Assembly: GCA_002167805.1 (NCBI GenBank)
Contig: NHBT01000009.1
Coordinates: 1-12,658 of the forward strand
Direction of reading: 5' to 3'
Length of the DNA stretch: 12,658 nt
Source of the DNA: Owenweeksia sp. TMED14
GTDB taxonomy: Bacteria; Bacteroidota; Bacteroidia; Flavobacteriales; Schleiferiaceae
How positions within the stretch are numbered: the stretch's first letter is position 1; each line of letters starts with the position of its first letter. The position numbers and the translations under genes were made by a program. The notes under the pieces were generated by a model. The model did no database searches. It was given only the letters and a program-made list of their open reading frames with translations, and was not told where the DNA came from. Below, piece by piece: positions 1-12,658 of this stretch.

Positions 1-222
1 ATCACTTCCAGCAACTCCAGCTAAGGTTCTAACAACACTTTCAACAGACTCTCCCGCATTCCCAATAGAATTGAGGGCGGAGGGATTAAGTGACAATATT
101 GACTCTTGATTTTCTCTTTTATCTTTTACTTCGACTTCAATTAAGCGTGTTGTGTTAGGAATAGTATCATTTATTGCAGATACACCCACGAAAGTTGTAA
201 GAAAAAAAGTAGTCAAAAACAT
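1..222 (-). CDS. TonB-dependent receptor, N-terminal fragment (signal peptide and start of plug)
   Basis: The frame starts at an ATG at 222 and stays open to the left edge (74 codons). Residues 1-16 form a hydrophobic signal peptide ending VSA, so export is expected. The following stretch, with LIEVEVKDKRENQE and later ESVVRTLAGVAGSD, matches the beginning of a TonB plug domain, where a conserved LPGV-type motif comes shortly before the RGG motif. The expected RGGNFDEN continuation is absent here but is found on the plus strand from about 505, so this and that piece look like the two halves of one receptor. The start lies two bases after the stop of the gene at 503-225, suggesting co-transcription. 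No carboxypeptidase-like regulatory domain precedes the plug. The receptor would import a large substrate across the outer membrane; the ligand is unknown. Confidence 0.75.
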   Translation of the reverse strand, partial: MFLTTFFLTTFVGVSAINDTIPNTTRLIEVEVKDKRENQESILSLNPSALNSIGNAGESVESVVRTLAGVAGSD

Positions 223-224
223 CT

Positions 225-503
225 TTAATTTTTAAAATCTCCGCGTTTGAGAGCTTGAAAAAATTGTGACCAAGCAAAAGGATTTGATAATCTACCCAAA
301 ATAGCCGCACCGCCACTTGCTCCATAATATCTATTGGCGTCATGAATAGTTTGAGATTGAGATTTCATAATATAATTTGATATTTCTCCCGCATCCATGC
401 CCATGACTTTTGCTTGTTCTTTAAGCGATTGAATCGCTAGATTTCTGAGAGCAATATCTCGATCTGTTGTTTCTATTGTCATCGATAATAGCTCACGATT
501 CAA
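225..503 (-). CDS. Unrecognised small protein upstream of the receptor start, possibly truncated at its N-terminus
   Basis: The open frame reads from 503 (TTG) or, more plausibly, from the ATG at 482 to a TAA at 225. It gives 92 or 85 residues. I do not recognise the family. The sequence is mostly polar and helical-looking in its first half (TDRDIALRNLAIQSLKEQAK), then has a small-residue stretch (GASGGAAILGRLSNPFAW) and a basic end. No signal peptide or clear membrane segment is seen. It ends two bases before the receptor ATG at 222, so the pair probably forms an operon. The frame stays open upstream to 578, but that sequence is antisense to the receptor, so residues before about 503 cannot be trusted. 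The gene may therefore be the C-terminal part of a longer protein cut at the junction near 504. Confidence 0.5.
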   Translation of the reverse strand: MNRELLSMTIETTDRDIALRNLAIQSLKEQAKVMGMDAGEISNYIMKSQSQTIHDANRYYGASGGAAILGRLSNPFAWSQFFQALKRGDFKN

Positions 504-524
504 ATTTTCAGGCCTTGGCCAAGG
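496..524. other. Inversion or chimera junction between two halves of a receptor gene, with a 12-bp palindrome
   Basis: To the left of about 504 the coding content runs on the minus strand (small gene, then receptor start). To the right it runs on the plus strand from inside the receptor plug, with no start codon that makes biological sense. The exact breakpoint cannot be fixed; receptor-like coding (FSGLGQGYRGGN) is credible from about 505. A perfect 12-base palindrome, CCTTGGCCAAGG, sits at 513-524 a few bases inside the plus-strand piece. Confidence 0.6.
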
Positions 525-2460
525 GTATAGAGGAGGAAATTTTGATGAAAACCTTTTAATTATAAATGGGTTTGAAATTTATAGACCGCAATTAGCGAGA
601 AGTGGTCAACAAGAAGGCCTAAGTGCCATAAATCCAGATATGGTTCGAAAACTTGAGTTCTCTGCAGGTGGCTTTAGCTCTGTCGAAGGTGATAAACTGT
701 CTTCCGTATTGAAATTAGAGTATGGTATTCCGAATACAGGTGAGTCCAACTTTCGTACTCGAGCTGGTATTTTCTCTGGGAGATTTTTTGCAAGCTATCG
801 AGGTCCAAAATCTAATAATAAAGAAAATAGAATTCAATCAAATGGAGGTATAGGAATTAGATATCGAAGTAATTCACCATTCATTAATACTGGTGATTCA
901 AAAGGAGATTTATTTTCAGCATCATACGACATTCAGTTTATTGAAAATTTTTATACAAAAAAATGGCATCATGAATTCTTGGGAATTGCTCAGTTAAGCA
1001 ATTTTACTTTGAATCCAATCAGCCGTGTCACAGAATTCGGAACAGTAACTGATGTTTTGAGACTCAACGTCAGTATGAGAGGCAAAGAGAGCTACTCTTA
1101 CAACAATGCTTTTTCAGGATGGAGAAGTACATTTCGACCCAATAAAAAGCTAAATATTTTCGCTGAAGGTTCATTAATTCAAGCACTTGAGTCCGAAAAT
1201 GCAGATGTTATTTCTGCCTATTTATTAGGAGAAGTCAACAATAACATGGGCTCAGACGATTTTGGGGAAATTTCATATCAAAGAGGATCAGGAGGACATC
1301 AGCGTTTTGCAAGAAATTATCTTTTTGCAAGAGAGTCACACCTTGCAATCGGTGGCACATTAGATTTAAATGACATCAATATAGATTTTGGAGTCGGAAG
1401 CCGGCGTCAATTCGGTCTAGATAGGCTTTATGAATGGGTTAACCTTGACTCTGCAGGTTATAGCCTTGCTCACAACCCTACACGGGTTACTCTCACCTCG
1501 GAGGATACTTTATTTGAATTCAAAGAATATCTTAAACTATTCCAAGTCACGGCGAGTGAAGGAGAACTAAATAATCTCAAAAATTATGCATTCTTTCGCA
1601 TCAACGGTGTGGACAAAATCAAAAATTCTTCCATCTATTGGGATGCTGGATTTCGACTTTTACATGATAGCAGAAGTAACGAGATTAGAATATCCCCAAG
1701 ATTGAGTTTTAAACATTGGGGTTCAAATGGTATCGTTTGGGATCTCAAATTTGGGTCTTATGCTCAAACTGCCAGTGTGAGAGAATTAAGAGATTGGCGT
1801 AATTCTAACCTTATAACGAATAGTAAAATGCAACATGCATGGCACAGCATCCTTGGTGCTGAGAAGAAATTTCTTTCACGTGACAGACCTTTTTTCTGGA
1901 GAGCTGAGATATATTATAAATTCTTAGATAATGCTTTCCCTTTTGAGCAAGACGGAATGCGGGTAAGGTACTTGGGTAATGGACCTGGAATAGCAAGAGT
2001 TTTTGGCTTGGATAATAGAGTCCATAGCCAATGGTTACCTGGTACTGAATCTTGGGTTTCACTTTCTCTTTTTCGATCTCAAGAAAAATTTGAAGATACA
2101 TGGTCTCGCAGGGGCAGCGACTACAGGTATGCTTTCTCTCTGAGGGTTGAAGATGCTTTGAAAGGATTTACGAATGATAAAGTTTATCTGCAAGTTTCGA
2201 TTACTGGAGGCTTCCCATTCGGATCTCCGTTGAGTTTCTCAAAACCATTCAAAGCTCCTCCATACAGGAGAATGGATCTTGGATTTCAGCATATTTTTAA
2301 TTCTAAATCGAGTGTATCTATTGAAGTTTTTAACCTGCTTGAAATTCGAAATACTGCAAGTTATTTTTGGATAATGGATATTTCCACGGCGCGTGAATAT
2401 GCTGTTCCTAACTATCTGACGAGCCGATTAATAAATTTCATCTATCAATATCAATTCTAG
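505..2460 (+). CDS. TonB-dependent receptor, plug remainder and beta-barrel (5' part missing)
   Basis: The frame is credible as receptor from about 505 (651 codons) to the TAG at 2458-2460. The ATG at 640 is internal, because clear plug sequence precedes it: RGGNFDENL begins at 529, then EIYRPQLARSGQQEGLSAIN and FSAGGFSSVEGDKLSSVL. These are hallmarks of Bacteroidota TonB-dependent receptor plugs. The remainder is rich in aromatic, Gly and Asn residues with alternating strands, as in a 22-strand barrel, and it ends in Phe (YQYQF), the usual outer-membrane assembly signal. No stops or frameshifts interrupt it. The missing start (about 75 codons) matches the minus-strand fragment at 222-1. As it stands here the gene lacks a signal peptide and promoter, so it would not make a functional receptor. 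Ligand and energy-box details are not readable. Confidence 0.85.
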   Translation, partial: FSGLGQGYRGGNFDENLLIINGFEIYRPQLARSGQQEGLSAINPDMVRKLEFSAGGFSSVEGDKLSSVLKLEYGIPNTGESNFRTRAGIFSGRFFASYRGPKSNNKENRIQSNGGIGIRYRSNSPFINTGDSKGDLFSASYDIQFIENFYTKKWHHEFLGIAQLSNFTLNPISRVTEFGTVTDVLRLNVSMRGKESYSYNNAFSGWRSTFRPNKKLNIFAEGSLIQALESENADVISAYLLGEVNNNMGSDDFGEISYQRGSGGHQRFARNYLFARESHLAIGGTLDLNDINIDFGVGSRRQFGLDRLYEWVNLDSAGYSLAHNPTRVTLTSEDTLFEFKEYLKLFQVTASEGELNNLKNYAFFRINGVDKIKNSSIYWDAGFRLLHDSRSNEIRISPRLSFKHWGSNGIVWDLKFGSYAQTASVRELRDWRNSNLITNSKMQHAWHSILGAEKKFLSRDRPFFWRAEIYYKFLDNAFPFEQDGMRVRYLGNGPGIARVFGLDNRVHSQWLPGTESWVSLSLFRSQEKFEDTWSRRGSDYRYAFSLRVEDALKGFTNDKVYLQVSITGGFPFGSPLSFSKPFKAPPYRRMDLGFQHIFNSKSSVSIEVFNLLEIRNTASYFWIMDISTAREYAVPNYLTSRLINFIYQYQF

Positions 2461-2693
2461 TGCGCATAGTAGAACAGATACCCCATTCAAAGTTTCGTAT
2501 TGTTTTATATACTACAGAAGTCTATTTCATAATCGAAATAGAAGCAGGACCTATGCGTCAGGCATATAAATACCATAAGGATAAATATCCTGATGTACCC
2601 AGCGTAAAAAAGACATTAACGGATGAGTGGCTAGAAAAATTGAGAGTTGGCTTTAACCAAATGTATACCGATTGGCCTGCAAATTCAAACTGA
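2460..2693 (+). CDS. Small conserved-looking protein of unknown function (77 residues)
   Basis: It starts with GTG at 2460, whose first base is the last base of the receptor stop codon, so translation is probably coupled to the receptor. The protein has a likely beta-strand pair at residues 10-29 (SKFRIVLYTTEVYFIIEIEA), then a charged middle and an amphipathic C-terminal helix with Trp residues at 57 and 72. There is no signal peptide, so it should be cytoplasmic. It recalls a family of roughly 80-residue uncharacterised Bacteroidota proteins, from memory only, and I assign no function. It ends 18 bases before the tail of the convergent ornithine aminotransferase gene. Confidence 0.65.
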   Translation: MRIVEQIPHSKFRIVLYTTEVYFIIEIEAGPMRQAYKYHKDKYPDVPSVKKTLTDEWLEKLRVGFNQMYTDWPANSN

Positions 2694-2711
2694 GTTGGAT
2701 CAAAAGCATAC

Positions 2712-3938
2712 TCATCGGCTTTCATACTTCCGGACAACTCTTTCGATAATATCCAAAGCCTGAAACATTTCATACTTAGTGATTACTAAAGGAGGGGCGA
2801 ACCTGATTATATTTCCATGAGTTGGTTTTGCTAAAAGGCCCATTTCTTTTAGTGAGATGCACATATCCCATGCAGTTGTGCTTTGATCAGAGTCATTAAT
2901 GACAATAGCGTTTAATAATCCTTTTCCACGTATTAAAGAGACAATTTCACAATCTTTCAAACGAGACCTAAGTTCATTTCTAAATAATTCACCCAGTATC
3001 TCAGCATTTTCTGCTAAATTTTCCTCAATAACAACCTCAATGGCAGCTTTTGCAACCATACAGGCGAGTGGATTTCCTCCATATGTAGAGCCGTGTTCTC
3101 CTGGCTTAATACAAAGCATGACCTCATCATCAGCAAGAACTGCAGATACCGGATAAACACCTCCGGATATAGCCTTTCCAAGTATTAGGATATCCGGACG
3201 AGCATCTTCAAAATCTGTAGCTAACATCTTACCCGTTCTTGCAATACCGGTTTGAACCTCATCGGCAATAAATAGCACATTATACTTTGAGCAAAGAGTT
3301 CTAACACCCTCTAGGTATCCTTCATCGGGGACAACAACTCCTGCTTCACCTTGAATCGGCTCTACCATAAAAGCCGTAACATTTGGATCCTTTAATTCAC
3401 TTTCAAGGGATTCCAGATCATTGTATGGAATTAAATCATAACCAGGCATATATGGTCCGAAGCCTTCATAAGAGGCAGGGTCATCTGAACTAGATATTGC
3501 CGCCAGAGTTCTACCCCAGAAATTTCCTTTAGCAAATAGAATCCTTGCCTTATTCTCTGGAATACCTTTTTTCAGGTAACCCCATTTTCTTGCTAATTTA
3601 TTTGCAGTCTCCCCTCCTTCTACCCCCGTATTCATTGGTAGCAACTTATCATAGCCAAAAACTTTGGTCATATATTTTTCAAACTCTCCTAGAATGTTAT
3701 TGTGAAATGCTCTAGATGTCAGAGTCAAAAGAGATGCCTGATCATTAAGAGCCTTTATTATCTTCGGGTGGCAATGGCCTTGATTTACAGCAGAATAAGC
3801 GGATAAAAAATCAAAATATTTTTCACCTTCAACATCCCATAAATGGACACCCTTACCTTTTTTGAGAACAACAGGTAAAGGGTGATAATTATGCGCGCCA
3901 TATCTATCCTCTAACTCTATAAATTTTTGGGAGTTCAT
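2712..3938 (-). CDS. rocD: Ornithine--oxo-acid aminotransferase
   Basis: It transfers the delta-amino group of ornithine to 2-oxoglutarate, giving glutamate 5-semialdehyde (cyclising to pyrroline-5-carboxylate). It links arginine/ornithine breakdown with proline and glutamate. The 408 residues match the family length and show the class-III aminotransferase layout: N-terminal [14 protein letters not shown] at 12-25, [17 protein letters not shown] at 44-60, [20 protein letters not shown] at 102-121, the cofactor Asp226 in ADEVQTG, and the PLP-binding Lys255 in [27 protein letters not shown] at 283-293 and the C-terminal RFAPPLVIT also fit. It is a cytoplasmic enzyme. The GVEGGETA and SGG-YPVSAVL signatures favour ornithine over acetylornithine or GABA aminotransferases. 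A TATCTTTG -7 element lies 22 bases upstream of the start. The gene is divergent from rlmD and convergent with the small gene at 2460-2693. Confidence 0.93.
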
Positions 3939-3960
3939 TTTATGATATTTAGATTCAATC

Positions 3961-3968
3961 CAAAGATA
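3961..3968 (-). promoter_or_regulatory. Bacteroidota-type -7 element for rocD
   Basis: The minus strand reads TATCTTTG, an exact match to TAnnTTTG. It lies 22 bases upstream of the rocD ATG, leaving a leader of roughly 15 bases. No clear TTG -33 element is visible. It forms an inverted pair with the same octamer at 3986-3993. Confidence 0.6.
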
Positions 3969-3985
3969 AGCCTTATAAAGACCAG

Positions 3986-3993
3986 TATCTTTG
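3986..3993 (+). promoter_or_regulatory. Bacteroidota-type -7 element for rlmD, probably giving a leaderless or very short leader
   Basis: TATCTTTG matches TAnnTTTG exactly and ends only four bases before the rlmD ATG at 3998. Transcription usually begins several bases after the -7 element, so the mRNA would start at or close to the initiation codon. No convincing -33 TTG is seen. Confidence 0.55.
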
Positions 3994-3997
3994 CTGT

Positions 3998-5413
3998 ATG
4001 ATAATTAAAAATGTTGTTATTAAGAGAGCTGGGGCAAAAGGGATTTCTATTGGCCACTCTCCGGAGGGTAAAACATTATTAGTTCGAGGAGCTGCTCCAG
4101 GAGATGTTGCAGATGTAAGAATTATAAAAAAAAGAAAAAAGCATCTTGAATGTATTACTGAGAATATAATTCAACCTGGTCCAGACCGAAGAGATCCATT
4201 ATGCAAACACTCTGAAATTTGTGGTGGGTGCAACTGGCAACATGTGTATTATTCCGCTCAATTGAAATTCAAAAGTCAAGAGGTTAAAGACAATTTAGAA
4301 AGAATTGGTAAACTTGAAAACGGGGAAATTCTCCCAATCATAAGTGCTCCAAACGAATATCGTTATCGAAATAAACTAGAGTTCAGTTTTTCATCAAATC
4401 GATGGTTAACTCTTGAAGAAGTGAATTCTGAAAAGAAAATCGAATCAAGAAATGCCTTAGGCTATCACGTACCTGGAATGTGGGATAAAATTATTGATAT
4501 CGACGAATGTCATTTGCAGCAGGAGCCTTCAAACTCGATAAGGCTATTTGTGAAAAATTATGCATTAAATAATGGTCTCACCTTCTTTCATCCGAGGGAC
4601 AAAAAGGGCCTCCTAAGAACAATTATGCTTAGATCTACATCAGAAAACAAATGGATGTTCGTGTTACAATTTTTTGAAGATCCCGAAAATGAAGGTCTAA
4701 AATTACTCGAGGCAGTTAAACTAAATTTTCCACAAATTGTAAGTATTTATTATGCTCATAACACAAAAGGAAATGATTCAATTTATGACTTGGATTTAAT
4801 ACTTTTCCATGGAAAGTCCTCACTAATAGAGAAAATGCCTTCAGTTACATCCAAAGGAAGAACACTCTCATTTAAGGTTGGCCCTAAAAGTTTTTATCAA
4901 ACTAACTCCGCACAGGCCTACGTTCTTTACTGTGAGGTTCTTAAAATGGCTAAAATAAAATCTAAAGACGTTGTTTATGATCTTTATACTGGGACTGGAA
5001 CTATAGCTTTGTTTATGGCACAAATAGCGAAAAAAGTCATAGGAATTGAAAGTGTTCAAGAAGCCATTGATGCCGCAAAACAGAATGCTCTAGATAATAA
5101 TATTGTGAATACGGAATTCATTGTTGGCGATATGAGAGAGGTATTTGATGAAGAACTATGGAATAAGCACGGAAAACCTGATGTTCTTATTACTGATCCC
5201 CCAAGAGATGGCATGCATCCAAAAGTTGTTCAGAAATTACTGGATCTTAAAATACCAAAAATTGTCTATGTTTCGTGCAATACTGCGACGCAGGCAAGAG
5301 ATCTTGATTTAATGCGTGGTGAATATCAGGTAGAATCAGTTCAACCAGTCGATATGTTTCCTCAAACGCATCACATTGAAAATATTTTATTGCTGAAATT
5401 GAAGTCAAATTAA
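3998..5413 (+). CDS. rlmD: 23S rRNA (uracil-C5)-methyltransferase, RlmD/RumA family
   Basis: It methylates C5 of a uracil in 23S rRNA (U1939 in E. coli numbering for RlmD) using S-adenosylmethionine. The 471 residues show an N-terminal TRAM-like RNA-binding segment (about 1-55), the four cysteines expected to hold a 4Fe-4S cluster (Cys69, Cys75, Cys78 in [10 protein letters not shown] and Cys171 in DECHLQ), and [16 protein letters not shown] at 292-307. The SAM-binding loop is [11 protein letters not shown] at 328-338, DPPRDGMHP lies at 400-408, the catalytic Cys427 is in [13 protein letters not shown], and the general base Glu461 is in HHIEN. All key residues are intact. RlmD, RlmC and TrmA share this fold; the TRAM segment and cluster cysteines favour RlmD or a close paralogue, and the exact target base is inferred. 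Confidence 0.9.
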
Positions 5414-5457
5414 GATTAAATTTAATTTTATCTTTAAGAGAATATATAGACCACGGT

Positions 5458-5958
5458 ATGAAAGAACGTACACTTATACTTGATCCTACGAAATTGGAAA
5501 GGGTAATCATGAGAATGGCTTGGCAAATCCTTGAGTTAAATTCTCAAGAAAAAGATTTTTACCTGGTCGGAATTAGCAAGTCTGGTTTCAAACTTGCTGA
5601 GAAACTCATGAAATGTTTATCTAAAATTTATGATGGGGATGTTCGCTTGGGAGAAATTTCTATTAACAAGAAAAACCCTCCTAAAGGTCCTACAAAATGC
5701 GATCTAGATCCTGAAGATTTCAAAGGTAAATCAGTCGTTATAGTTGATGATGTTCTTAATTCAGGGGCAACACTTATTTATGCGGTAAAGTATTTTTTAG
5801 TTGCAGAGACAAAAAATCTTTCAACAGCAGTTTTAATTGATCGAAATCATAAGAGATACCCAGTTAAAGCAGATATAAAGGGTCTAAGCTTAAGCACGAG
5901 CTATCAAGATAATGTTGAAGTGAGCTTCGAAGATAAAGCTGCTGTATACCTAGTCTAA
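5458..5958 (+). CDS. PyrR-like phosphoribosyltransferase
   Basis: This is a 166-residue type-I phosphoribosyltransferase. The PRPP-binding signature is VVIVDDVLNSGATL at 93-106 with the acidic pair Asp97-Asp98. The segment DRNHKRYPVKADIKG at 128-142 followed by STSYQDNVEV resembles the C-terminal region of PyrR (DRGHRELPI... type), which is a pyrimidine-operon regulator and uracil phosphoribosyltransferase in Firmicutes. No pyrimidine gene or attenuator is in view, so a regulatory role is not supported, and the substrate base is unknown. The start is an ATG 44 bases after rlmD. A TATCTTTA sequence at 5429-5436 is a weak -7 candidate, so co-transcription with rlmD is also possible. The last nine bases (5950-5958) overlap the end of aroK on the other strand. 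Confidence 0.8.
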   Translation: MKERTLILDPTKLERVIMRMAWQILELNSQEKDFYLVGISKSGFKLAEKLMKCLSKIYDGDVRLGEISINKKNPPKGPTKCDLDPEDFKGKSVVIVDDVLNSGATLIYAVKYFLVAETKNLSTAVLIDRNHKRYPVKADIKGLSLSTSYQDNVEVSFEDKAAVYLV

Positions 5959-6465
5959 GCTTTCTAAGCTTTCAATAAGTTCTTTTTCCCAACCTGGGTT
6001 TTCTGTATCACACATGATATCACATTGCTCATAAAAAGCTCGCCGTTCAAAAAGGTGCTTGGCGACAAACTCAGAGATATTCGTCTTATTAACTCCTTTT
6101 AAAAGAGGACGATCGATCATTTTATCGCTTAAAATTCTAGACACTAAAGTTGGGATTTTAGCTTTTAAATACACCGTAGTTCCGTGGAGATTCATCCATT
6201 TCATATTTTCATAATAGCATGGCGTCCCTCCTCCAACCGAAATTACTCCAGACCTTCCTTCAAATAGCCTTAATTGTTCCTTTTCTACTTTTCGAAAAAT
6301 CAATTCACCCTCCTTCTCAAAAATCTCATCAATATTTTTTCCTAGTGATGAGGATATGCAATCATCCAAGTCGAAATAATCACTATTTAAAGATTCACCT
6401 AAAACCTTTGCCAACCTTGTTTTACCCGACCCCATGTAACCTATAATGAAAATTGGTTTCCTCAT
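5950..6465 (-). CDS. aroK: Shikimate kinase
   Basis: It phosphorylates shikimate with ATP in the shikimate pathway to aromatic amino acids. At 171 residues it has normal family length. Visible motifs are the Walker A loop GYMGSGKT at 9-16, DLDD at 32-35 (shikimate- and Mg-binding Asp), Arg58 in IFRKVE (shikimate binding), GGG at 78-80, Arg119 in the lid (MIDRPLL), and the ERRAFYEQ region at 139-146. All expected functional residues are present. It is cytoplasmic. A TACTTTTG -7 element lies about 21 bases upstream of the ATG, back-to-back with the promoter of tRNA-Lys. Its stop codon overlaps the end of the convergent phosphoribosyltransferase. Confidence 0.93.
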   Translation of the reverse strand: MRKPIFIIGYMGSGKTRLAKVLGESLNSDYFDLDDCISSSLGKNIDEIFEKEGELIFRKVEKEQLRLFEGRSGVISVGGGTPCYYENMKWMNLHGTTVYLKAKIPTLVSRILSDKMIDRPLLKGVNKTNISEFVAKHLFERRAFYEQCDIMCDTENPGWEKELIESLESLD

Positions 6466-6486
6466 ACCTAAAAATATTGCTCAAAA

Positions 6487-6494
6487 CAAAAGTA
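6487..6494 (-). promoter_or_regulatory. -7 element for aroK
   Basis: The minus strand reads TACTTTTG, matching TAnnTTTG, 21 bases upstream of the aroK start. No clear -33 TTG at the right spacing. Confidence 0.45.
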
Positions 6495-6522
6495 CAGCAA
6501 CAATTAAATTAAAGTTTCTATC

Positions 6523-6530
6523 TATATTTG
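6523..6530 (+). promoter_or_regulatory. -7 element for the tRNA-Lys/tRNA-Leu unit
   Basis: TATATTTG matches TAnnTTTG exactly and ends 22 bases before the tRNA-Lys 5' end. The same octamer drives tRNA-Val at 7364-7371. A TTG at the usual -33 position is not evident. Confidence 0.6.
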
Positions 6531-6552
6531 CAGCCTTATTTGAAAAAATAAT

Positions 6553-6625
6553 GACTCGATAGCTCAGCTGGTAGAGCAATACACTTTTAATGTATGGGTC
6601 CTGGGTTCGAGCCCCAGTCGGGTCA
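6553..6625 (+). tRNA. tRNA-Lys (anticodon UUU)
   Basis: The 73-base cloverleaf has acceptor strands GACTCGA and TCGGGTC (one T-G pair), D-arm AGCTCAGCTGGTAGAGC, anticodon stem ATACA/TGTAT with loop CTTTTAA (anticodon TTT at 6586-6588), and T-arm CTGGG-TTCGAGC-CCCAG. The discriminator is A. CCA is not encoded. It is followed after 13 bases by tRNA-Leu, so the two are probably one transcript. Confidence 0.97.
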
Positions 6626-6638
6626 CATTTTTTCATTA

Positions 6639-6721
6639 GCCCTGGTGGTGAAATTGGTAGACACGCCACCTTGAGGGGGTGGTGACCTTCGGTTGTGCTG
6701 GTTCGAGTCCAGTCCAGGGCA
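6639..6721 (+). tRNA. tRNA-Leu (anticodon GAG)
   Basis: The 83-base class-II tRNA has acceptor strands GCCCTGG and CCAGGGC, anticodon stem CCACC/GGTGG with loop TTGAGGG (anticodon GAG at 6673-6675, reading CUC/CUU), a long variable arm (TGACCTTCGGTTGTG region) and T-arm CTGGTTCGAGTCCAG. The discriminator is A and CCA is not encoded. Confidence 0.96.
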
Positions 6722-6816
6722 CTATTAATTATTTTTTAAAAGCCTCTCCTTCATCAAGCAAAAAGGGGCTTACTAATAAAGACTCTGAACTAAAATTGAT
6801 CTAAAATGTTCTCATA

Positions 6817-7296
6817 ATGATGAACAAATTTTTAATTTTTTTCTTTTCACTGAACATTTTAACCCAATGTCAATCCCAAACGATAAACAAGATGGATGAT
6901 TTTAAGCCGCGTATTCAAAAAAGTGATTCAGAATGGCTTGAAAAACTGGGTCCTGAGCGATTCAGAATTTTAAGACAAAAAGGAACTGAATATCCTGGCT
7001 CGGGAGAATATGATAAGAATTTTAAAAAAGGAACATATAGCTGCGCAGGATGCGGAAATAAGTTATTCACCTCAGAGTCAAAATTTGACGCGCATTGTGG
7101 TTGGCCAAGTTTTGATAAAGAAATTATACCGGGGGCCATCACAGAAATTAGAGATTTTAGTGCGGGTATGATAAGAACAGAAATTTTATGTACCCAATGC
7201 GGAGGACATCTTGGTCATGTATTTGATGATGGACCAACAGAAACAAAGCTCCGATATTGCGTCAATAGCCTAAGCATGAGCTTTGAGGAAAGGTGA
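6817..7296 (+). CDS. msrB: Exported peptide-methionine (R)-S-oxide reductase
   Basis: It reduces methionine-R-sulfoxide in oxidised proteins. The 159-residue protein begins with a hydrophobic export signal (residues 4-17) followed by Cys18 in ILTQC. This could be a lipoprotein cysteine, but Gln before Cys is not a good lipobox, so a cleaved signal peptide or membrane-anchored form is equally possible. The catalytic domain covers about 36-158. It shows zinc ligands Cys76/Cys79 (CAGC) and Cys125/Cys128 (CTQC), CGWPSF at 94-99 with Cys94 as possible resolving cysteine, GHLGHVFDDGP at 130-140, and catalytic Cys148 in RYCVNS. All are intact. Location in the periplasm or on the outer membrane suggests repair of envelope proteins. 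The start could be either of two adjacent ATGs (6817 or 6820). It sits alone between tRNA genes. Confidence 0.92.
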   Translation: MMNKFLIFFFSLNILTQCQSQTINKMDDFKPRIQKSDSEWLEKLGPERFRILRQKGTEYPGSGEYDKNFKKGTYSCAGCGNKLFTSESKFDAHCGWPSFDKEIIPGAITEIRDFSAGMIRTEILCTQCGGHLGHVFDDGPTETKLRYCVNSLSMSFEER

Positions 7297-7341
7297 TTAT
7301 TTATTTTTGATACAGAGTAAATCTTTCATTTTTTAAATAGC

Positions 7342-7371
7342 TTGCATAACGGTATTCCAAACCTATATTTG
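7342..7371 (+). promoter_or_regulatory. Complete Bacteroidota-type promoter for tRNA-Val
   Basis: TTG at 7342-7344 is followed after 19 bases by TATATTTG at 7364-7371, the standard spacing and consensus of Bacteroidota primary-sigma promoters (TTG, 19-21 bases, TAnnTTTG). It ends nine bases before the tRNA. This is the best promoter in the window and strong evidence for the phylum. Confidence 0.8.
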
Positions 7372-7380
7372 CACCCCTCC

Positions 7381-7455
7381 GGGAGATTAGCTCAGCTGGT
7401 TCAGAGCACCTCGTTTACACCGAGGGGGTCGGGGGTTCGAACCCCTCATCTCCCA
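7381..7455 (+). tRNA. tRNA-Val (anticodon UAC)
   Basis: The 75-base cloverleaf has acceptor strands GGGAGAT and ATCTCCC, D-arm AGCTCAGCTGGTTCAGAGC, anticodon stem CCTCG/CGAGG with loop TTTACAC (anticodon TAC at 7416-7418), and T-arm GGGGGTTCGAACCCCTC. The discriminator is A and CCA is not encoded. Confidence 0.97.
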
Positions 7456-7463
7456 CAAAAAAT

Positions 7464-7489
7464 AAACCCACTCTAATGAGTGGGTTTTT
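7464..7489 (+). terminator. Intrinsic terminator after tRNA-Val
   Basis: A perfect ten-base-pair stem (AAACCCACTC / GAGTGGGTTT) closes a TAAT loop, and the 3' arm runs into five T in a row. It starts nine bases after the tRNA. Confidence 0.9.
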
Positions 7490-7566
7490 GTATAATTACA
7501 CTATTTTAAAATTAAGATAATTATTTTAAAAAAGTTCGAACTTAGGACCGAGAGGTCCACATTTTT
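7490..7566 (+). ncRNA. Possible small RNA or decayed tRNA remnant between two terminators
   Basis: This non-coding stretch contains a perfect 12-base palindrome AAGTTCGAACTT (7532-7543) and a short hairpin GGACC-GAGA-GGTCC (7545-7558) with a GNRA-type tetraloop. It is closed by a second terminator. GTTCGAAC and the final CCACA echo the 3' end of the preceding tRNA, but the spacing does not make a T-arm plus acceptor. No TAnnTTTG promoter is visible inside, so it may only be read-through sequence. No gene is seen in the rest up to 7643. Confidence 0.3.
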
Positions 7567-7593
7567 AACCTCAACATTTTGTTGGGGTTTTTT
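7567..7593 (+). terminator. Second intrinsic terminator
   Basis: AACCTCAAC pairs with GTTGGGGTT (nine pairs, one T-G) around an ATTTT loop, running into TTTTTT. It lies about 50 bases upstream of the nitroreductase start. Confidence 0.85.
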
Positions 7594-7643
7594 ATTGCTA
7601 TTTAAGGATAATTATTAAATCTCACTTTTTTTATTTTTACTTC

Positions 7644-9520: not shown

Positions 9521-10426
9521 ATGAGAATAAAGTTTATCATATTTTTCTTTTTATTTCTTTTAAAATCGATATGTTTTGGTAAAAACGATCATCCTGACTC
9601 GACAAACAGCAATTCCAATATTTTAAATATTGCCACTTGGAATATTCAAATGCTTCCTACAAATTTTTCATTTGTTTCAAAATTCCTGCAAAAAAAACAG
9701 AAAACAAGAACCCCATTGATCATAGATTATTGCATAAAGCATGACTTCGATATTATTGTTTTTCAAGAAGTGTTTGATCGTAAAATTAGAAGAAAGATTA
9801 TTCAGGGTTTAAATAAATCTTACCCCTATCAAATCCATCCAATTAAAAATAAAAAAGCATTAGTGAGTAATGGTTTATTAATTGTGGGACGAATTCCTTT
9901 AAATTACCTTGATCATATTGTTTTTAAGCCAGGGGTCAAAGCAGATAAATATGCTGCAAAAGGATGCGTTTTATTTCACGCTCAAGTAAATGACATTGAT
10001 ATCCATTTTATGGGCACTCATCTTCAGTCAGGCAATTCTTCCAAAGCCATTTCCACACGTAAACTTCAATATCGAGATATTCGGAAATTAATGAATCGGA
10101 ATTCGAAGGATAATAATCCATTCATCATCCTTGGTGATCTAAATACGAAAAAGTCCGAGAAAGAAAAGTACTTAGAAATGTTAAATATACTGGGAGTTTC
10201 AGACTCTGAATCAATATTTAAAAATCTATACACTTTTAGTCCTGAAAATTCATGGAATAATAACTCAAGACCGCTTCAACTTGATTATATACTGATTCAA
10301 AAGGACAATATGAAGTTGAAAATAAATTGGCAAAAAGTCTTTAAGCCTACGCATTTGTATAAAGGCAAAGAAATGGACCTTGCTGATCATTATCTCCTGA
10401 ATGCTGAAATATTAGTTCGAAAATAG
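9521..10426 (+). CDS. Exported endonuclease/exonuclease/phosphatase-family enzyme, sphingomyelinase-like
   Basis: This is a 301-residue metal-dependent phosphodiesterase. Residues 4-19 are a hydrophobic signal peptide (cleavage likely near FG-KN), so it acts outside the cytoplasm. Motifs of the fold are all present: ATWNIQMLP at 38-46 (Asn41), IIVFQEVFD at 78-86 (Glu83, metal ligand), MGTHLQSG at 164-171 (His167), FIILGDLNT at 201-209 (Asp206, Asn208), QLDYILIQ at 253-260 (Asp255) and the catalytic Asp289-His290 in LADHYLL. GTHLQ and the spacing resemble bacterial neutral sphingomyelinases (sphingomyelinase C), so a phospholipid or sphingolipid head-group substrate is plausible. A nuclease or another phosphodiesterase cannot be excluded. 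It lies alone, divergent from the photolyase-like gene and convergent with the oxygenase gene (19-base gap). Confidence 0.8.
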   Translation: MRIKFIIFFFLFLLKSICFGKNDHPDSTNSNSNILNIATWNIQMLPTNFSFVSKFLQKKQKTRTPLIIDYCIKHDFDIIVFQEVFDRKIRRKIIQGLNKSYPYQIHPIKNKKALVSNGLLIVGRIPLNYLDHIVFKPGVKADKYAAKGCVLFHAQVNDIDIHFMGTHLQSGNSSKAISTRKLQYRDIRKLMNRNSKDNNPFIILGDLNTKKSEKEKYLEMLNILGVSDSESIFKNLYTFSPENSWNNNSRPLQLDYILIQKDNMKLKINWQKVFKPTHLYKGKEMDLADHYLLNAEILVRK

Positions 10427-11394: not shown

Positions 11395-11425
11395 TTGTTT
11401 CATTAAGGATTCTACCCCACCTTTG
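11395..11425 (+). promoter_or_regulatory. Probable promoter of the 2-oxoacid dehydrogenase E1 gene
   Basis: TTG at 11395-11397 is followed after 20 bases by CACCTTTG (11418-11425), which keeps the TTTG core but has C instead of T at the first position. It ends nine bases before the ATG at 11435. Confidence 0.4.
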
Positions 11426-11434
11426 TCAAGTCTC

Positions 11435-12658
11435 ATGTCACAAAATAATTTTTATTCTAAACTTGACAAATCAGATGCACAAAAGTATTTCGAGCACCTC
11501 TTCCTTCCCCGTGCTGTTGAGGATAGAATGCTTCTAGCTTTGCGTCAAGGAATAATTTCTAAATGGTTTTCTAGCTATGGCCAGGAAGCTGTATCAGTCG
11601 CAACCACACTTGCTATGCACGAAGATGAATGGATTTGTACAATGCATAGAAACTTGGGAGTTTTTACGTCAAGAAATATTCCTTTGGAAAAGCTCTTTTC
11701 TCAGTTTCAAGGGAAACCTAATGGTTTTACCAAAGGCAGAGATCGCTCTTTTCATTTCGGCTCCAAGGAGCATAATATTTTTGGAATGATAAGCCATTTA
11801 GGCGCACAATTAGGAGTCGCAGATGGGCTAGCTTTCGCAAGAAAACTAAATCATGAAAAAAAATGTGTTTTGGTGTTTACTGGAGATGGAGGTGCATCCC
11901 AGGGAGACTTCCATGAAGCTTTAAATGTTGCTTCAGTATGGAAACTTCCCGTTCTTTTTGTCGTAGAAAACAACCAATGGGGGCTATCAACTCCATCCAA
12001 CGAACAATTCAACTTTGACTCTTTTACGGTAAAAGGAGATGCATATGGAATGGAAGCACATAGTGTTGATGGAAATGATTTTGCAGCAACTCTGTCTTTA
12101 TCAAAAAAATTAACGTCGAGTATTCGAAGCAACCCAAGGCCAATTTTATTAGAATGTAAAACGTTCAGAATAAGAGGTCATGAAGAAGCTTCAGGGACAA
12201 AATACTATCCAAAAGGCCTTATTGATTCATGGAAATCGAAAGACCCCATTCTTAATTTTCGAGGGAATTTGATTTCAGAGAAAATTCTTTCTAAGAATGA
12301 GATAAAATCGATTGAAGAAAGTCTAAATGATAAGGTTCTTGGGAGTCTCAAAATTGCATTGAAAGAGTCGGATTCTGAATTTAAACTGGAGAATGAGTTA
12401 AAAGATGTCTTCAGTAACAAAAAATATGATTCAGAAAAAACCCAAAATAAAGGTAAACTAAAAAAAATGCGTTTTATCGATGCAATTCACTCAGGCCTAG
12501 AGTGCTCATTAAAAGAACATGACAACCTAATTTTTATGGGCCAAGACATAGCCGATTATGGTGGTGTGTTTAAAGCAACAGATACTTTTTTAGAAAAGTT
12601 TGGAAAAGAAAGAATAATAAACACTCCATTGTGTGAATCTGCGATTGTAGGGGTTGGT
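11435..12658 (+). CDS. 2-oxoacid dehydrogenase E1, fused alpha and beta subunits (3' end beyond window)
   Basis: The frame opens at an ATG at 11435 and runs off the right edge without a stop (408 codons seen). Residues 1 to about 325 are an E1 alpha chain: SYGQEAVSVATTLA at 47-60, FGMISHLGAQLGVADGLA at 116-133, and the thiamine-diphosphate motif with GDG at 150-152 and NN at 179-180. A lysine-rich linker (about 328-344) leads to an E1 beta chain starting MRFIDAIHSGLECSL at 345, with IFMGQDIADYGGVFKAT at 366-382 and TPLCESAIVG at 397-406. Glu401 corresponds to the cofactor-activating Glu59 of human pyruvate dehydrogenase beta. Fused E1 of this type in Bacteroidota is usually the branched-chain 2-oxoacid (2-oxoisovalerate) enzyme, making branched acyl-CoA for iso-fatty acids and Val/Leu/Ile breakdown. 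Pyruvate or acetoin use cannot be excluded. The gene is divergent from the oxygenase gene. Confidence 0.88.
   Translation, partial: MSQNNFYSKLDKSDAQKYFEHLFLPRAVEDRMLLALRQGIISKWFSSYGQEAVSVATTLAMHEDEWICTMHRNLGVFTSRNIPLEKLFSQFQGKPNGFTKGRDRSFHFGSKEHNIFGMISHLGAQLGVADGLAFARKLNHEKKCVLVFTGDGGASQGDFHEALNVASVWKLPVLFVVENNQWGLSTPSNEQFNFDSFTVKGDAYGMEAHSVDGNDFAATLSLSKKLTSSIRSNPRPILLECKTFRIRGHEEASGTKYYPKGLIDSWKSKDPILNFRGNLISEKILSKNEIKSIEESLNDKVLGSLKIALKESDSEFKLENELKDVFSNKKYDSEKTQNKGKLKKMRFIDAIHSGLECSLKEHDNLIFMGQDIADYGGVFKATDTFLEKFGKERIINTPLCESAIVGVG

Follow-up and report, generated by a model that had tools for sequence, protein, structure and literature searches.

The stretch of DNA analysed, hereafter the window, comprised the first 12,658 bases of contig NHBT01000009.1 (C23:1-12658) in the draft genome of Owenweeksia sp. 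TMED14. Its left edge (base 1) was a contig end, a possibility that the sequence-only reading had raised, and C23 continued to the right of the window, a later search having found a match at C23:25246. The draft genome consisted of 32 contigs with 1,720,102 bases (~1.72 Mb), a completeness of 93.2% and a contamination of 4.46%. At the left end of the window, an open frame of 74 amino acids on the minus strand (222-1) faced away from a plus-strand frame ending at 2460. Comparison with a second contig of the same draft, C17, confirmed the earlier proposal that a single TonB-dependent receptor gene lies here in two opposed halves, the frames corresponding to residues 1-74 (minus strand) and 83-725 (plus strand) of the 725-amino-acid protein encoded on C17. 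Codons 1-74 occupied window 1-222, an inverted copy of C17:20249-20470 that ran off the contig end. They were followed at window 225-532, also on the minus strand, by an inverted copy of C17:19939-20246 containing the last ~102 of the 212 residues of a small gene that precedes the receptor on C17. Codons 83-725 with the stop codon lay at window 529-2460 on the plus strand, corresponding to C17:20495-22426.

A search of the same draft genome with window 1-1200 returned, besides the window itself, two matches, both on C17 (29 of 29 candidates scored), one with window 528-1200 on the plus strand and one with window 1-532 on the minus strand. Full alignment showed that window 528-7625 (plus strand) had been assembled twice, being 99.972% identical over 7098 bases to C17:20494-27591, and that window 1-532 was 99.812% identical over 532 bases to C17:20470-19939 in inverted orientation. 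The two contigs differed at three bases (window 312, 2774 and 6638), suggesting that they perhaps derive from different strains or samples; the nearest relative, genome G016, carried the C23 base at two of these three sites. C17 terminated within the duplicated stretch, at window 7625, and beyond this position the window matched C23 only, save for a match of 99 bases at 78% identity to C28, over the tRNA-Val region (40 of 88 first-look candidates scored).

The intact receptor copy that the sequence-only reading had proposed to look for was thus present in the same assembly, at C17:20249-22426, directly after the small upstream gene, which encodes 212 amino acids and stops two bases before the receptor ATG. 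In the window this upstream gene is cut as well. The intact receptor contained a Plug domain (PF07715, E 2e-06, 28.7 bits against a cut-off of 23.9), and no Pfam barrel domain was matched in its 725 amino acids at E up to 0.01; the window fragments 1-222 (minus strand) and 640-2457 (plus strand) matched no Pfam family at the same limit. The whole upstream gene gave a weak match to CarbopepD_reg_2, below the cut-off. Short tandem repeats with a period of apparently ~27 bases were seen at the left end of C17 (L005:1-97); these matched the left end of C5 (L014) and were also found at the corresponding place in G016 (L090:1-260).

Elsewhere in the window, three tRNA genes (Lys, Leu and Val) were located at 6553-7456, in stretches unusually conserved among relatives, with C17 breaking off ~170 bases past tRNA-Val. 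An endonuclease/exonuclease/phosphatase-type protein, matching sphingomyelin phosphodiesterase below the cut-off and, as judged by eye, likely to carry a signal peptide, was encoded at 9521-10426. The frame at 11423-12658 gave two successive matches below the cut-offs, first to the alpha subunit of pyruvate dehydrogenase E1 and next to the beginning of the beta subunit; it probably encodes an E1-type protein with alpha and beta fused, truncated at the window end.

The two arms met at window 528-532 in the word TAGAG, common to both, and 23 bases of the intact locus (C17:20471-20493) were missing between them. These bases comprise codons 75-81 and two bases of codon 82 and encode ELSSQYSV, after which the receptor resumes at its RGG motif. 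The plus-strand half had been thought to begin near 505; the residues FSGLGQGY read from 505-527 are antisense to the upstream gene and do not belong to the receptor. Turning over the left end does rejoin the gene, as had been suggested for bases 1 to about 504, with the break placed at 528-532 and the 23 bases still lacking. Window base 1 corresponded to C17:20470, 23 bases short of the point where the arms meet, and this starting point of C23 may be due to the word length of the assembler or to a gap in coverage. In 200,000 random inverted self-joins of C17, a word of at least five bases common to both sides occurred in 0.7%; it is therefore probable that base pairing guided the join, as happens in template switching.

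Receptor matches were obtained in 55 of 60 genomes searched with the inner 536 residues, including the organism's own genome, some of these matches being distant, and with the whole protein as query the receptor was found in all 22 genomes of the genus, again including its own. The best copies were uninterrupted in 19 of the 21 same-genus relatives, with open frames of 715-828 amino acids; the exceptions were G004, where the gene was cut at a contig end (618 amino acids), and G021, which had one TAA and started near a contig edge. Of 20 loci read (the C17 locus and those of 19 of the 21 relatives, G011 and G020 having returned no locus), 18 had ELSSQYSV exactly and running straight into RGG, and one residue was changed in the other two. 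G016 (95% protein and 94% DNA identity) was collinear with C17 for 27,277 bases, across the position of the break, its contig stopping at about window 7427. In G003 and G013, which are more diverged in DNA sequence, weaker matches placed both window arms in the intact arrangement; the pyruvate dehydrogenase region from the far end of the window was matched on the other strand in these two genomes. G005 contained, in addition to a whole copy, a second partial receptor match (residues 13-152, 55% identity) at the start of one of its contigs (C42:22-444). Eleven relatives with names were metagenome-assembled Cryomorphaceae, Schleiferiaceae or other Flavobacteriales, a group that is probably marine, given the Tara Oceans origin of one relative.

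Redundancy of the draft was not confined to C17 and C23. The 30 other contigs have 60 ends, of which at least 12 pairs overlapped without having been merged (at least 93 bases, 92-100% identity); the pairs included C1/C25, C9/C19, C20/C24, C21/C24 and C4/C26. These overlaps give the bin the look of a redundant composite, and part of its 4.46% contamination may stem from this. There were 105 Ns scattered in C17, and Ns were present at 35 of the 60 ends of the other contigs; the G016 contig had 80 Ns in 27.6 kb, and the stretches of G003, G010, G013 and G015 had none. The G016 contig corresponds to NYSL01000021.1, an accession inside the range of a Tara Oceans genome set, for which the assembly procedure outlined in PMC5769542 consists of per-sample assembly with Megahit and subsequent merging of contigs with Minimus2. 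The Ns and the unmerged overlaps suggest that the TMED14 genome was built in a similar way. Chimeras of the kind considered here had no report for the Tara set in the literature consulted. A comparison of the 60 ends (2 kb each) with each other, with C17 and with the window revealed no second inverted contig end, a comparison that would miss an inverted arm with a partner away from the ends of an unfetched contig, and this kind of artefact is accordingly not shown to be frequent in the assembly. For C27 and C31, which had overlapping ends with unmatched overhangs, no inverted origin was found among the ends, and the C27 overhang searched against the whole genome gave no inverted origin, with only short matches (71-81% identity) to a dispersed repeat.

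We consider it very probable that the left end of the window arose as a fold-back (inverted) chimera, and that C23, which carries it, is one of two redundant contigs in a composite metagenome assembly. As the receptor is whole in C17 and in close relatives, the flip most likely arose in the assembly or the library, as an artefact, rather than through a genetic switch. The locus was intact elsewhere in the assembly and in relatives, the homology at the join was short, and the arms lay within 555 bases of each other on opposite strands. Template switching through TAGAG/CTCTA during library preparation or amplification would produce a chimeric molecule or read in which the reverse complement of the receptor start is joined to the receptor's own plug region; an equivalent false route through the assembly graph could give the same product. 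The inverted overhang of 527 bases would then have blocked merging of C23 with C17, leaving both copies in the bin. In the organism itself, the receptor would be one intact gene, two bases past the small CarboxypepD-like gene. The fold-back chimera or misassembly, which the sequence-only reading had wanted to see ruled out before anything else, is retained as the best reading.

A real inversion of ~555 bases (C17:19939-20493) in part of the natural population, acting as a switch or as a sporadic loss of function of both genes, would also generate the locus as assembled. A clean flip between the words CTCTA and TAGAG would yield exactly the observed junction and would put the 23 missing bases immediately past the contig end, given that window base 1 is C17:20470. 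The three base differences between C23 and C17 leave room for another strain. Nevertheless, the inverted repeat coinciding with the breakpoints amounted to five bases. Elsewhere between the 200-base breakpoint flanks, inverted matches reached at best 8 bases when exact and 14 bases at 86% identity, and C17 aligned against itself showed none at E 1e-3. With up to three mismatches allowed, the flipped junction turned up in one of the 22 genus genomes, where it lay on C23 itself; the reciprocal junction was absent from all 22, the organism's own included; as the junction patterns are species-specific, they are expected to work in very close relatives only and carry little weight for relatives whose identity is 72% or lower. 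The organism's own genome yielded no serine recombinase (PF00239), in a search whose control was positive in 10 of 14 genomes, an absence that is not absolute in a genome 93.2% complete. Two tyrosine recombinases (PF00589) were found there, on C26 and C9; in NCBIfam the first scored above the XerD cut-off and the second matched XerC best, below the cut-off of that family, and the two most plausibly are the housekeeping XerCD pair. Such an inversion would furthermore destroy two genes and expose no alternative; none of the results speaks in its favour, and we regard it as unlikely. That a minor part of the wild population of this uncultivated flavobacterial species carries a genuine 555-base inversion, driven by microhomology with no dedicated invertase and jointly switching off the receptor and its partner gene, for example under phage pressure, is a distinctly improbable version of events.

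Invertible outer-membrane receptor loci exist in Bacteroides, and the break in the window had been likened to them; a locus of this type would be expected to come with a dedicated invertase in the genome, usually adjacent. What the two have in common is a TonB-type receptor gene, interrupted in the plug, in a lineage of Bacteroidota. Unlike the Bacteroides loci, the present one had no long inverted repeats and no dedicated invertase was detected; window 1-1200 matched only C17 and C23 in the organism's own genome, and thus no spare receptor start or plug exists there at the DNA level. Also unlike those loci, the flipped form was seen at one contig end only. With an intact form in the same assembly and in relatives, the comparison to Bacteroides was not upheld, and the search for a recombinase that accompanied it yielded the two Xer-like proteins alone. 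Three more specific candidates were likewise set aside: an invertible locus with repeats, given the five-base word at the breakpoints and the lack of an inverted self-match in C17; a dedicated invertase, there being no PF00239 protein and two Xer-like PF00589 proteins; and a different receptor to the left, where the arm is the start of the same receptor. A further possibility is that the genome holds a real duplication of 7.6 kb, one copy of which has a broken receptor. The presence of the same 7.1 kb in two contigs is what such a duplication would give; against it, the end of C17 falls within the shared stretch. Of the five relatives fetched, G010 and G015 have the receptor, the genes of the shared stretch and additional C23 genes in one piece and in window order to ~9800, where the fetched stretches end. 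The shared stretch also includes housekeeping genes (ornithine aminotransferase, RlmD and tRNAs), which are usually single-copy, and the 99.97% identity together with the many unmerged end overlaps fits assembly redundancy. A duplication is accordingly very hard to credit.

The fold-back chimera resembles inverted chimeras known from strand-displacement amplification or library preparation, which likewise unite two nearby pieces of one locus from opposite strands and have a short shared word where these meet. In the reads of phi29-amplified human DNA for which PMC6515389 gives figures, inverted chimeras averaged 91.36% of single-end chimeras, counted with an overlap of more than two bases and pieces 25-5000 bases apart. 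The data given there are human reads and not contigs, and in the present case the chimera may stem from ordinary library preparation or from the assembler. As to the TonB-dependent receptors, the intact C17 protein shares the Plug domain with them, at a length of 725 amino acids and with no Pfam barrel domain matched. The reading as a fold-back chimera removes one false candidate for phase variation, and it offers a cheap check for metagenome-assembled genomes: when a gene looks split or flipped next to a contig end, the intact locus should first be sought on another contig of the bin. Were the inversion true after all, it would constitute an off-switch for a receptor that operates without inverted repeats.
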